Shown in pieces: positions 50,858 to 55,565 of a stretch of 64,000 nucleotides of DNA (its first letter is position 1; each line of letters begins with the position of its first letter). The notes under the pieces were generated by a model. It was not told the origin of the DNA. It searched no databases and saw only the letters and a program-made list of their open reading frames with translations. Both the position numbers and the translations under genes were made by a program. Where the stretch lies: assembly GCA_030532225.1 (NCBI GenBank), contig JAUNLQ010000002.1, positions 124,001 through 188,000 of the forward strand. The letters run 5' to 3'. This DNA comes from Bacillota bacterium. Lineage in GTDB: Bacteria; Bacillota; Clostridia; Tissierellales; Peptoniphilaceae.

Positions 50858-51355
50858 ATGACACTTGGAGAAAAATTACAAGGCTTAAGAAAGTCTAAGG
50901 CCATGAGCCAGGAAGATTTGGCAGCAAATTTAAAAGTATCGAGACAGACCATATCTCGTTGGGAACAAGACCAGGCCCTGCCAGACTTATCAAATATAAT
51001 TGCCCTAGCCAAGGTTTTTAATATAAGTATTGATGACCTAGTGGGAATTGACATAGAAGATATAAATAAAAACCAAGAAGGCGTAAATTTGTCAAAAGAC
51101 CTTTTCGCCTATAAAATGAAATTCGTCTTTGGCATAATTCTACTTAGTCTTGGCCTAGTCTTGGCTATAGGCCTAAGTATTTATGGGTCCCTAGTTGGAG
51201 GCTATTTAGTAAGACCAGGTCAACCAGACCTACAGGGCTTGTCTGCCTTTTTGTATATAAAGGAACTTTACTGGGTTTATTTTTTGGCAGCAGCCTTTGG
51301 CCTTTTAGGACTAGGCCTAGTTGGAGCCTTTAAAAAATTAAAAATAGTTTCATAG
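50858..51355 (+). CDS. XRE family regulator with two membrane helices
   Basis: 165 residues from the ATG after AAAGGAGACTAAA; a TTG 14 codons earlier overlaps a TATAAT promoter hexamer and is unlikely. HTH_3 domain (about 4-60): LGEKLQGLRKSKAMSQEDLAANLKVSRQTISRWEQDQALPDLSNII. The C-terminal half has two membrane helices (about 93-113 and 135-155). This membrane-tethered XRE layout is common in Bacillota. The last 23 codons and the terminator are repeated at 54261-54377, see there. Confidence 0.9.
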   Translation: MTLGEKLQGLRKSKAMSQEDLAANLKVSRQTISRWEQDQALPDLSNIIALAKVFNISIDDLVGIDIEDINKNQEGVNLSKDLFAYKMKFVFGIILLSLGLVLAIGLSIYGSLVGGYLVRPGQPDLQGLSAFLYIKELYWVYFLAAAFGLLGLGLVGAFKKLKIVS

Positions 51356-51400
51356 AAATTTTCAAAAAGTGCTGAAATTTTTGGCACTTTTTTATTTGCC
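51347..51400 (+). repeat. Direct repeat, copy 1 (XRE 3' end plus terminator)
   Basis: 54 bp, identical to 54324-54377, covering the last codons of the XRE gene and its terminator. Weaker similarity extends left to 51284. The two copies are in the same orientation and enclose about 2.9 kb. Confidence 0.95.
51364..51395 (+). terminator. Terminator of the XRE gene
   Basis: AAAAAGTGC / GCACTTTTT with T tail; an identical copy lies at about 54341-54372. Confidence 0.85.
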
Positions 51401-51581
51401 ATTAACAGGGAAAAAAATTTTTATTGGCTTCTCCTGCCTTAAGTTCTTACTAGAAAAAATCTTTGCCAACAAGGAGTAAAGAAAAAAGAATTTGAGAATT
51501 TTATCTTGGTTAAGTTGAAATTTTCTGCTATAGTTTTTTTAGGAAGACTTTCCATAAATTTTAAAAAATCTAGGAGCAAGG

Positions 51582-52127
51582 ATGATAATATTTTTAGCAG
51601 GCTTAACTAATGAAGAAAAAGCCTTTGTAAGTAATCTTTACAATAAACATGGCCAATATTTCTTTAGAAAGGCCTTTTACATATTAAAAAACAAAGAATT
51701 AGCAGAAGAAGCCTTGGCCAATGCCTTTATAAAAATTATGGGAAATATTGAAAAAGCATCTAGCTTGGCTGATGAAGACCTCCTTCCCTACTGTCTTACC
51801 CTTGTAAAAAATGAAGCAATTAACATTATTAGAAAAGACAAGAAGCATTTATATACAGACAACATAGAAACTTATCTTATAGAAGACCTGGAAAACAAAA
51901 TTGAAGCAGAATTTATTCTTAAAGACCAGTTCCAAGCAATAGTAAATGATAAGACCCTACTAAAGGAAGAAGAAAGACTTTTTCTTATTTTTCGTTACCA
52001 CCATGACCTGACCTATAATGAAATAGGAAAATTATTGAACATAAGCCAAGGAACAGCCTTAAAAAGAAACCAAAGAATCTTAGAAAAAATTAGAAAAACA
52101 AAAACAGGAGGCCAACAACATGAATAA
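51582..52127 (+). CDS. RNA polymerase sigma factor, sigma-70 family (ECF-like)
   Basis: 181 residues. Region 2: FVSNLYNKHGQYFFRKAFYILKNKELAEEALANAFIKIM; region 4: LFLIFRYHHDLTYNEIGKLLNISQGTALKRNQRILEKIRK. No region 1 or 3, so it is an ECF-type sigma factor. Its last 8 bp overlap the next gene, which encodes a membrane protein with a DUF4367-like outer part, the usual anti-sigma arrangement. AGGAGCAAGG precedes ATG. Confidence 0.9.
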   Translation: MIIFLAGLTNEEKAFVSNLYNKHGQYFFRKAFYILKNKELAEEALANAFIKIMGNIEKASSLADEDLLPYCLTLVKNEAINIIRKDKKHLYTDNIETYLIEDLENKIEAEFILKDQFQAIVNDKTLLKEEERLFLIFRYHHDLTYNEIGKLLNISQGTALKRNQRILEKIRKTKTGGQQHE

Positions 52128-53091
52128 TCAAGCTAAACAAGGACTAAAAAATGTTGCCAGCCTTCTTTATGAGGAAAAAATCCAAGACCTAAATAAGCTT
52201 AGCTGGACAGAGAAAGATTTAAGTAATGAAGAGATTCTTGTTCTTGCAAGGAAAATCCAAGACCTGCCTTACACCTATCAGGCTATTTTAAAGGCCAAGT
52301 TTATTTTCCAAATGACTCCTAGCCAAGCAAACACTAGCCTTGACCTAAAAGATTCCAAAAATCTCCTAAGCTTTGTAATTCATTTATTATCAAAAGACTT
52401 TTTCCCAAAAGGCCAAAGAATAAGTAGTCAGTCTATAAAAAAAGCCCTGGTCCTAGTCCAAGAAAAAGAACTGGCAGAAGACAAGCTTGTCTTAGACAAT
52501 AATCTGGCCTTCCATCCTTCTAAGGCCTTTGAAGAAAAAATTAAGGCTTTAGGAATTAAAACTAGAAATCCCTATAGAAAAATATTAAAGACTGCTGCAT
52601 CCTTTTTAATAGTCTTACTAGCTAGTCTTATAATGTTTTTCAGTATAAATGTTGAAGCTAGACAAAAACTATTTGATTGGATAATTAAAGATTTTGGTAG
52701 TTACAGTAGCTTTACGCCAGAAATTATAGATCCACAATCAAGTGAATCCATTAATATAGACGATCTTAAAATTTTATATATACCAAAAGATTTTGAACTA
52801 GTAGAAGAAAAAATAGCTAGAATTTCAAAAATCATCTTATATAAAGATAAAAACAATGAGGATTTATTCTTTTATATTAAGCTTAAGAATTTTGAAAATT
52901 CAAATTCAATTAATCTTTATGACACTGAAGATGCAGTCTTAGAAGAAATTTTTATTAATGGAAACAAGGCTTATTACTGGACCCATGAGACTAATATGCT
53001 ACTTTGGCAACAAGATAATATAGAGTGTTTTATTTCAGGAAGTATTTCAAAAGATCAAATAATAAAGATTGCTGAAAATATTTCAAAATAA
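52120..53091 (+). CDS. Putative anti-sigma factor with DUF4367-like domain
   Basis: 323 residues. A cytoplasmic part of about 155 residues with no known motif, one membrane helix (about 157-176, KTAASFLIVLLASLIMFFS), the juxta-membrane VEARQKLFDWIIKDFG that recurs in DUF4367 anti-sigma proteins, and an extracellular domain ending in KDQIIKIAENISK. It overlaps the sigma factor gene by 8 bp. Probably holds the sigma factor at the membrane until a signal arrives. Unlike most anti-sigma factors the cytoplasmic part lacks a clear zinc-finger or ASD motif. Confidence 0.78.
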   Translation: MNNQAKQGLKNVASLLYEEKIQDLNKLSWTEKDLSNEEILVLARKIQDLPYTYQAILKAKFIFQMTPSQANTSLDLKDSKNLLSFVIHLLSKDFFPKGQRISSQSIKKALVLVQEKELAEDKLVLDNNLAFHPSKAFEEKIKALGIKTRNPYRKILKTAASFLIVLLASLIMFFSINVEARQKLFDWIIKDFGSYSSFTPEIIDPQSSESINIDDLKILYIPKDFELVEEKIARISKIILYKDKNNEDLFFYIKLKNFENSNSINLYDTEDAVLEEIFINGNKAYYWTHETNMLLWQQDNIECFISGSISKDQIIKIAENISK

Positions 53092-53241
53092 TTTCTGTTT
53101 TTCTGTCCTTTTTTTTCCCTTGTAAAGCGTTAGTATTATAAGGAGGGAATTTTTAAAAAAATGACTAGAGCCTTTCTTAAGATTGCTGTAGTCTTGTCCT
53201 CTAAAAATTAGAAATAAAAAAATTTTAAAAAAGGTGGTAGT

Positions 53242-53595
53242 ATGGAAGGAATTTTGTTAGTAATTTTAGCCCTTGTCCAATTTAAAAAGTATAAGCTGGC
53301 TGCTAAGTTTAGGAACCGTGATGGGATTTATCTTAAGTCCTTTGTCCTTATTTTAGGTCTTGGGGCAGTGTACTTGTCCATAAGAACTTTTATGGACCTA
53401 AGACACTTAGGACCTGATCTTAATATTTCTTATTTCAAGCCCCTACTTGGCCAGCTGAAAAATATTTCAGATGCCTTAATAGAAAGTAAGGAAGATAGGC
53501 TAGCTGGCTGGGCAATTCTAGCCTTTAATTCTTATAAGTTACTTTTAGCAGACTTAGGTCTTTTAAACCTGGCTTTTTTTCTATCAAAGAAGTAA
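53242..53595 (+). CDS. Membrane protein, 117 residues, unknown
   Basis: I do not recognise a family. Start ATG follows AAAAAAGGTGGTAGT. Three hydrophobic segments (about 2-12, 28-46 and 88-113) with a short charged middle (RTFMDLRHLGPDLNISYFKP) suggest a small membrane protein. It lies in the repeat-bounded block behind the anti-sigma gene and may be a target or partner of that system. Confidence 0.65.
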   Translation: MEGILLVILALVQFKKYKLAAKFRNRDGIYLKSFVLILGLGAVYLSIRTFMDLRHLGPDLNISYFKPLLGQLKNISDALIESKEDRLAGWAILAFNSYKLLLADLGLLNLAFFLSKK

Positions 53596-53663
53596 AGGTC
53601 TTTAAAAGAGCAATTAATTTCTTGGCTTAGATTTTTCTACAGCCAAGCTTAGGAGATGATAAA

Positions 53664-54236
53664 ATGGAAAAAATTAAATCCTTTATAAAAAAAGATCCAG
53701 GCAAATTTTATAAACTTGCCTTTGTTCTCAGCCTTCTTGTAATAATTTCTTTGTGCTTTTCCTTACTTACAGTTAAAGAGATGGACAATAAGAGAATGGT
53801 TGCAGCTACTGACTCTTACATGATTTCTCTCAAGTCTTTTTCCTATTGGATAGAAGTCTACTTAGAAGATCCAAGTAGGGAAGACCTACAGGCTAGTCAA
53901 AATCACCTAACTTCTGCCATGGGCTCTTATATGGCAATAGCCAGTCCTAGCAAAGGCTCTAGCTATGAAGACTTAAGGGAGGGCCTTTCTAAGCTGGCCC
54001 AGATAAACCATTATCTAAGTTTTCAACATTTTCCCAAGGCAGCTAACCAAGAAGAAAATCTTAAGATTCAAAAACTAGTTCAAGCCTATAAGGACCTGGT
54101 GAACTTTTATTATGACTCTGGCAATGGTGGTTTTTATCGTAAGAGATTTGAAAACTACAAGGACTTGGTAACCAAGCTAGAAGACCTTAACCAAACTATA
54201 ATTAAGGACTTTAATATAAAAGAATCAGACCTATAA
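53664..54236 (+). CDS. Membrane-anchored protein, 190 residues, unknown
   Basis: One N-terminal membrane helix (about 19-40) and a mostly helical outer or inner domain of about 145 residues with repeated Lys/Glu and Tyr (SYWIEVYLEDPSREDLQ, YKDLVNFYYDSG). No catalytic motif or cysteine pattern. I do not recognise a family. TAGGAGATGATAAA precedes ATG. Last complete gene of the block enclosed by the direct repeats. Confidence 0.65.
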   Translation: MEKIKSFIKKDPGKFYKLAFVLSLLVIISLCFSLLTVKEMDNKRMVAATDSYMISLKSFSYWIEVYLEDPSREDLQASQNHLTSAMGSYMAIASPSKGSSYEDLREGLSKLAQINHYLSFQHFPKAANQEENLKIQKLVQAYKDLVNFYYDSGNGGFYRKRFENYKDLVTKLEDLNQTIIKDFNIKESDL

Positions 54237-54260
54237 GGCTCTTTTATTTGAACCTTGCTA

Positions 54261-54332
54261 TTGGCTGCAGCCTTTGGTCTTCTAGGCCTAGCCCTAGTTG
54301 GCTTTTTTAAAAAGTTTAAAATTGTTTCATAG
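54261..54332 (+). pseudogene. Truncated duplicate of the XRE gene 3' end
   Basis: In frame it reads LAAAFGLLGLALVGFF followed by KKFKIVS and a stop, matching the end of the XRE protein (LAAAFGLLGLGLVGAF, KKLKIVS). A TGA stands just upstream in frame and there is no start, so only the last 23 codons survive. The following 48 bp, including the terminator, are identical to those after the intact gene. Confidence 0.9.
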
Positions 54333-54377
54333 AAATTTTCAAAAAGTGCTGAAATTTTTGGCACTTTTTTATTTGCC
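54324..54377 (+). repeat. Direct repeat, copy 2
   Basis: 54 bp identical to 51347-51400, at the right edge of the sigma/anti-sigma block. Confidence 0.95.
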
Positions 54378-54448
54378 CTTTGATAGGCAAGTTCATTATA
54401 TCTTAGTTCGCCAATAAGTAGACAATCTGGATCTTGTCTTAAATATGG
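54378..54448 (-). pseudogene. Likely relic of a T2SS/T4P-type (GspE/ComGA) ATPase gene
   Basis: On the minus strand one frame reads LRQDPDCLLIGELRYNELA, which is the Walker B/Asp-box signature of GspE/PilB/ComGA ATPases (LRQDPDxxLIGEIRDxETA). The frame is closed by a stop about 20 nt upstream of this segment and breaks off at the edge of direct repeat copy 2, so only a scrap remains. No other type II secretion or competence-pilus genes are in the window. Short, so the call rests on one motif. Confidence 0.5.
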
Positions 54449-54667: not shown

Positions 54668-55081
54668 TTATTCAAGTTCTGCTATATATTTCTTTTGAGC
54701 TTTTTTAGCATCTTTTAAAATATTGTAATGGAATATATATTTCTTTAAAAAGTCTCTAAGGCTAATTTCTTCTTCCCAAACTTCATCTTCGTCTACAAGG
54801 GAAAAAGAAATTTCAGGTAGGGCATCAGGCAAGTCTATATATTTTTCTATTGCCCTATAGTTTTCAAGCAACAAGGAATCTAATTCTTCAATAGAGCCAT
54901 AGGTAAATTCGCCATTTTCATACGAACCAGAATGATAGGATACAATATAGTCGTCTTCGTATGGAGTGTCAAACCATTGTGTTAATGAATTAATTCCCTC
55001 AAAATTAAGCGATAAAGCTTCTATATCATACATAAAGTCTCCTGTGGTTTCATATATATGTGATAGCCTTAATTTTTTCAT
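54668..55081 (-). CDS. Unknown acidic protein, twin A
   Basis: 137 residues; paralogue of the next gene. The C-terminal 68 residues (from YIDLPDALPEISFSL to AQKKYIAEL) are identical in both proteins, and the DNA behind them is identical over 153 bp. The N-terminal halves diverge (FEGINSLTQWFDTPYEDDYIVSY here) but share the TPYED pattern. No membrane helix or catalytic motif; very acidic. The layout of conserved end and variable front recalls immunity or toxin-neutralising families, but no toxin gene is next to it. TTCAAGGAGTAAACAC precedes ATG. Confidence 0.72.
   Translation of the reverse strand: MKKLRLSHIYETTGDFMYDIEALSLNFEGINSLTQWFDTPYEDDYIVSYHSGSYENGEFTYGSIEELDSLLLENYRAIEKYIDLPDALPEISFSLVDEDEVWEEEISLRDFLKKYIFHYNILKDAKKAQKKYIAELE
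54674..54826 (-). repeat. Identical 153-bp block, copy in twin A
   Basis: Same sequence as 55161-55313, encoding the C-terminal part of both twins; similarity continues at lower level beyond it. Confidence 0.92.
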
Positions 55082-55139: not shown

Positions 55140-55565
55140 TTAAAAATCTGTTGTATCGTAAAGTTCTGCTATATATTTCTTTTGAGCTTTTTTAGCATCT
55201 TTTAAAATATTGTAATGGAATATATATTTCTTTAAAAAGTCTCTAAGGCTAATTTCTTCTTCCCAAACTTCATCTTCGTCTACAAGGGAAAAAGAAATTT
55301 CAGGTAGGGCATCTGGCAGGTCTATATACTTTTCTATCTCCCTATAGTTTTCTAGATGTAAAACACTAAGCTCCTCGATAGGTAGCAAGCTATCACCATA
55401 GAGCTTACCGCTATAAAGGATTACATATTTGTCTTCATAAGGGGTAAAAAACTCATGAACTGTGTAACCTTCTAAGTTAAAATCTAAAACCAATGTTTCC
55501 GCATCATCAATAACATCGCCTGTATCTTCATAGATAAATGGTAAGTTCAATTTTAAATCTTTCAT
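55140..55565 (-). CDS. Unknown acidic protein, twin B
   Basis: 141 residues, upstream twin of the gene at 54668. Its front differs (IYEDTGDVIDDAETLVLDFNLEG, FFTPYEDKYVILYSGKLYGD), its back is identical apart from the last residues (ending ELYDTTDF instead of ELE). The leader before ATG (TTCAAGGAGTAAACAC) is the same as that of twin A, so duplication included the ribosome site. About 60 bp separate the genes; no terminator stands between them. Function unknown. Confidence 0.72.
   Translation of the reverse strand: MKDLKLNLPFIYEDTGDVIDDAETLVLDFNLEGYTVHEFFTPYEDKYVILYSGKLYGDSLLPIEELSVLHLENYREIEKYIDLPDALPEISFSLVDEDEVWEEEISLRDFLKKYIFHYNILKDAKKAQKKYIAELYDTTDF
55161..55313 (-). repeat. Identical 153-bp block, copy in twin B
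   Basis: Matches 54674-54826 base for base; offset between copies 487 bp. Confidence 0.92.

Follow-up and report, generated by a model that had tools for sequence, protein, structure and literature searches.

An ECF sigma/anti-sigma operon behind a repeated XRE gene end occupies different chromosomal sites in two sister species

Several described systems resemble parts of the locus reported here. In the Bacillus SigV/RsiV system (ECF30 group), the sigma gene overlaps the gene of an anti-sigma factor with a single transmembrane (TM) segment, and downstream genes carry an ECF-type -10 CGTT promoter. Homologous integration of the Campbell type leaves a full gene, an insert and a gene stub in direct orientation. 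Finally, the H47 genomic island of E. coli carries no recombinase and was observed to excise between short direct repeats, independently of RecA (PMC5426353).

Within the 64,000-nucleotide stretch of DNA that we analysed (hereafter the window), we found a block that shares features with each of these systems. Its sigma gene overlaps a single-TM anti-sigma gene and is followed by genes with a CGTT-type promoter, here predicted from sequence; it lies between short direct repeats with no recombinase of its own; and the order of full gene, insert and stub in direct orientation is that of a Campbell-type product. In contrast to RsiV, the anti-sigma factor of the block carries a DUF4367 domain, and Pfam detected no RsiV lysozyme-binding domain in it; the accessory genes, too, differ from those of SigV/RsiV in having no known family, and the likeness is drawn independently of an ECF group assignment. 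Unlike H47, for which excision was observed, the block is flanked by a repeat that consists of a mosaic gene end and does not resemble an att site. Unlike in a Campbell-type case, the donor molecule is unseen, and the exchange is deduced from the mosaic repeat.

Genes of the block

The locus comprises the following features:

50858-51355, plus strand: XRE-type regulator, intact copy, 165 aa (Pfam HTH_3, E = 3.5e-16)
51284-51403, plus strand: repeat copy 1, the last 23 codons of the XRE gene with its stop codon and a T-tailed hairpin
51404-54260, plus strand: the block itself, 2857 bp separating the two repeat copies; found at another locus (L039) of the sister species G002 and absent from the XRE locus (L038) of that genome
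51582-52127, plus strand: ECF-type sigma factor, 181 aa (Sigma70_r4, 8.9e-10; Sigma70_r2, 6.6e-6)
52120-53091, plus strand: putative membrane-anchored anti-sigma factor, 323 aa (PF14285, 2.3e-19; C-terminal DUF4367 domain)
53104-53131, plus strand: predicted ECF target promoter, TGTCCTTTTTTTTCCCTTGTAAAGCGTT, just 3' of the anti-sigma gene
53161-53211, plus strand: 16-codon open reading frame (ORF) that begins like a signal peptide, at the place of a G002 gene for a 135-aa secreted protein
53242-53595, plus strand: 117-aa membrane protein, 52% identical to that of G002
53664-54236, plus strand: 190-aa membrane-anchored helical protein, 42% identical to that of G002
54261-54380, plus strand: repeat copy 2, a headless 23-codon XRE 3' end with the same hairpin

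The sigma protein has regions 2 and 4 only, with PF04542 and PF04545 above their gathering scores and TIGR02937 (sigma70-ECF) above its cut-off. The product of the overlapping gene has one TM segment near residue 158 and an outer DUF4367 domain at residues 217-321, and its gene order, overlap and topology suggest that it acts as the anti-sigma factor. The original prediction had added two membrane proteins to this pair. Both are indeed membrane-associated, but the 190-aa protein appears to be membrane-anchored rather than polytopic, with a single TM helix at its N-terminus and, after it, a predicted helical bundle (structure model all helix, pLDDT 80.5). A fold search with this model returned nothing significant, the best hits being sensor-domain helical bundles (E = 0.5), and the model of the 117-aa protein was of low confidence.

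Neither accessory protein belonged to a known family in Pfam and profile searches. The 117-aa protein had matches in 3 of 120 family genomes, the third of them marginal, and the 190-aa protein had none outside G002 in 41 genomes; one marginal match aside, both genes appear restricted to the genus among the genomes searched. Among the block genes we recognised no recombinase, transposase or defence gene, and the block edges showed no terminal inverted repeats of at least 8 bp, the sole flanking repeat being the XRE end. Likewise, we found no phage or plasmid match to the block and no Rfam family at the locus, and contig scans for close relatives with the 190-aa protein and the 28-bp terminator, together with viral contig scans, gave no matches.

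Two adjacent minus-strand genes at 54668-55081 and 55140-55565 (137 and 141 aa) have a 195-bp stretch in common at 97% identity (54674-54868 and 55161-55355) and differ strongly in their 5' parts. No Pfam family scored above cut-off for either; the two resemble immunity-type genes that arose by duplication and conserved their 3' end.

A mosaic repeat of the XRE gene end

The intact XRE gene, which most likely starts at the ATG at 50858, encodes an N-terminal HTH followed by two hydrophobic segments (peaks at residues 90 and 140), and matches to the protein in a defence library cover its HTH only. Its 3' end, including the T-tailed hairpin (51364-51392 in copy 1; -11.6 kcal/mol, z -2.3), recurs in direct orientation at a spacing of 2977 bp. 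The two copies align without gaps at 89% identity over 120 bp (13 mismatches) and include an unbroken identical run of 54 bp (51347-51400 and 54324-54377). A genome search with the repeat returned exactly two copies in the 1.43-Mb assembly, the second with E = 2.3e-40, and a chance origin is excluded. At copy 2, similarity to the XRE gene (best score 175, versus a shuffle maximum of 36) ends abruptly at 54261, and alignment with shuffled controls found no XRE-like sequence 5' of this position. These observations confirmed what had been read from the window at the outset, namely that the XRE 3' end and its terminator occur twice in direct orientation, with 54 identical base pairs and related sequence reaching 23 codons back, and that the second copy, with its 23 in-frame codons, is a headless remnant. 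The repeat had also been placed correctly, except that the end given for it, 54377, marks the identical run only, while the homology reaches 54380.

The differences between the copies are unevenly distributed. Ten of the 23 codons of the stub differ from those of the intact gene, and seven of these ten changes are synonymous; when the same number of bases was mutated at random, at least seven synonymous codons were obtained in 0.9% of simulations (P = 0.009). The coding part therefore appears to have diverged mostly while in a working gene. Complementarily, random placement of the 13 differences yielded an identical run of 54 bp in 0.3% of trials (P = 0.003). The repeat is a mosaic: its coding part carries mostly synonymous changes and its end is identical. 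This pattern suggests that a second, diverged XRE copy took part in an exchange through the common 3' end; constraint on the terminator may contribute to the 54-bp identity. At sites differing between the copies, G002 agrees with copy 1 at six and with copy 2 at three, which tips the balance towards copy 1 being the resident orthologue.

The main rival explanation for the mosaic is gene conversion between tandem duplicates. The XRE gene would have been duplicated in tandem, the block would have landed between the copies or inside the second one, most of that second copy would have been lost, and conversion would have kept the ends identical. Such a course would account for the abrupt beginning of the stub and for its mostly synonymous divergence, as expected of two once-working copies. 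However, it needs three separate steps (insertion, deletion and conversion), G002 has no tandem XRE pair, and no second full-length XRE paralogue was found in the window's genome, and we regard it as possible but rather unlikely. A larger tandem duplication was also considered and dropped, as the sequences 3' of the two copies have nothing convincingly similar.

With a draft assembly that is 73.6% complete and split into 32 contigs, unrelated loci might also have been joined artificially through the 54-bp repeat. Yet the copies differ in their coding part, both lie within one contig with genes on either side, and a misjoin would need to insert a self-closing segment of 2.98 kb, making an artefact very improbable.

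Reciprocal empty sites in a sister species

For comparison, just two genomes were informative: that of the window (G000) and that of its best relative, G002, which belongs to the same genus and is complete. The block and XRE proteins of G002 are 42-64% identical to those of the window. The XRE orthologue (64% identity) lies in G002 at a locus that contains neither the block nor a second XRE copy. The left-hand neighbours of the XRE gene are common to both genomes (a YeaQ-like protein, 81%, and a copper-amine-oxidase-N protein, 62%); in G002, transposase-like genes lie between them and the XRE gene, and beyond the XRE gene come unrelated genes and sortases. Around the XRE gene of G002 (L038:3096-7440) we also noted an IS3-like transposase pair as well as short, scattered repeats, such as stretches containing CGGCGAAGC; the XRE locus of the window has neither repeats of this type nor the transposase pair.

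The orthologues of the block genes (sigma factor 56%, anti-sigma factor 53%, 190-aa protein 42%, 117-aa protein 52%) are located 287 kb from the XRE gene in G002, between genes for an M3 peptidase (oligopeptidase) and an M16C peptidase, names that we assigned by reading the sequences and not by family search. In G000, the same two peptidase genes adjoin, 195 bp apart, within a region of about 12 kb in which gene order is conserved. The empty sites are reciprocal: each species is empty where the other carries the block. Relative to the sister species, the block does sit like an insert behind the XRE gene, as originally proposed. As the order of the 117- and 190-aa genes is swapped between the two genomes, the block has also been rearranged internally, and more than one rearrangement must have taken place.

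Which of the two sites is ancestral is addressed by a candidate remnant of the sigma promoter in the vacant peptidase site of G000. This remnant would make the peptidase site ancestral but is only suggestive, with p of about 0.004 against the left flank in G002 and p of 0.02-0.15 against the sequence upstream of the block in G000 itself, all in AT-rich DNA. Elsewhere in the family, outside the genus, the M3 and M16C genes were direct neighbours in none of the cases listed, the nearest pair being about 6 kb apart in the opposite order (G018), and the M16C gene of G001 has a different neighbour.

Three further sigma/anti-sigma pairs are syntenic in both genomes, and their sigma factors are 56-58% identical, compared with 56% for that of the block. 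Paralogous pairs that stayed in place have diverged to the same degree, which argues for vertical inheritance of the block followed by relocation, and against a fresh acquisition. A recent horizontal acquisition by G000 from outside the genus would be in line with the slightly lower G+C content of the block (32.1%, versus 35.3% in the window). Besides the matching divergence of the three immobile pairs, however, the genus restriction of the accessory genes and the lack of a closer match in 120-130 family genomes speak against it, and we give this explanation almost no credence.

Because the empty sites lie at different places in the two species, they indicate relocation since divergence and not excision within a population. 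This qualifies the expectation that relatives would reveal insertion or excision: G002 does offer an empty XRE site with a single copy, but one that shows relocation between species. A self-mobile or population-variable island would still be excising through the repeat, leaving the XRE gene intact. An identical direct repeat of 54 bp has sufficient length for deletions to occur occasionally, the copies could physically recombine and, judging by their sequence, would then leave an intact XRE gene, and the H47 island provides a precedent for excision between short direct repeats with neither recombinase nor RecA (PMC5426353). Nevertheless, the block lacks a recombinase, element ends and any phage or plasmid relatives, and its deleted form was seen in none of the collections, in which each species is represented by one genome. 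An island of this kind is improbable. The block could loop out, as originally suggested, but the absence of a recombinase, terminal inverted repeats and phage or plasmid matches leaves the picture of a unit that currently does so unsupported.

Predicted promoter and probable route of relocation

Behind the anti-sigma gene, G000 and G002 have TGTCC-(18 or 19 nt)-CGTT in common, and the surrounding DNA has diverged. Scanning three genomes of the genus with the pattern TGTCCNTTTN{7,14}AANCGTT resulted in four matches, compared with none in a reversed control and 0.01 expected in the window. All four are located at sigma/anti-sigma operons: at 53104-53131 in the window, at G002:C3:754919, behind a paralogous anti-sigma gene on contig 6 of G000 (G000:C6:244032), and, on contig 17, about 0.9 kb downstream of a further pair (G000:C17:152183). 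The simplest reading is that these sigma factors recognise the motif as their target promoter. The G002 genes that follow it encode proteins of 135 and 296 aa, both with signal-peptide-like starts. The gapped alignment of the two genomes runs past the promoter into the start of the 135-aa gene of G002, and the 16-codon ORF of G000 is probably the remnant of such a gene. The two secreted-looking G002 proteins (L039:7970-9293) have no known family and are missing in the window's genome. By this layout, the anti-sigma factor would hold the sigma factor at the membrane until an envelope signal releases it, and the downstream membrane and secreted genes would then be transcribed from TGTCC-(18-19)-CGTT.

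Taken together, we consider it fairly probable that the block is a genus-specific, vertically inherited ECF sigma/DUF4367 anti-sigma operon with its likely targets, which relocated after the species split through recombination at the XRE end. By the likeliest route, a DNA segment carrying the block beside a diverged XRE 3' end would have recombined with the resident XRE gene, the exchange passing through the common gene end and terminator. The outcome would be the full XRE gene to the left of the block, the stub to its right and identical sequence at the point where the exchange was resolved. The source of the second XRE copy would be either a duplicate or a donor allele, in both cases a diverged one; the donor arrangement, with the block beside a second XRE gene, was found in no genome compared. 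The mosaic fits the earlier suggestion that the block arrived by recombination through the repeat; duplication followed by loss, suggested there too, is also a possible course. The repeat would thus most likely be a footprint of the arrival of the block and not part of a self-mobile element, and the event has the appearance of a single chromosomal move, not of the work of a mobile element.

A broader reading would make the operon a cassette that relocates recurrently in the genus, swapping its targets via short gene-end and terminator repeats with no recombinase of its own. It draws on the two secreted-protein genes of G002 and the remnant in G000, and on the reversed order of the 117- and 190-aa genes; we hold it to be unlikely.

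The locus offers a clean case of a regulatory operon that moved between two chromosomal sites: each sister species is empty where the other carries the operon, and a probable footprint of recombination marks the move. It is otherwise an ordinary genome rearrangement of modest general interest. For the biology of these bacteria, the predicted promoter motif makes the small regulons of their ECF sigma factors testable.
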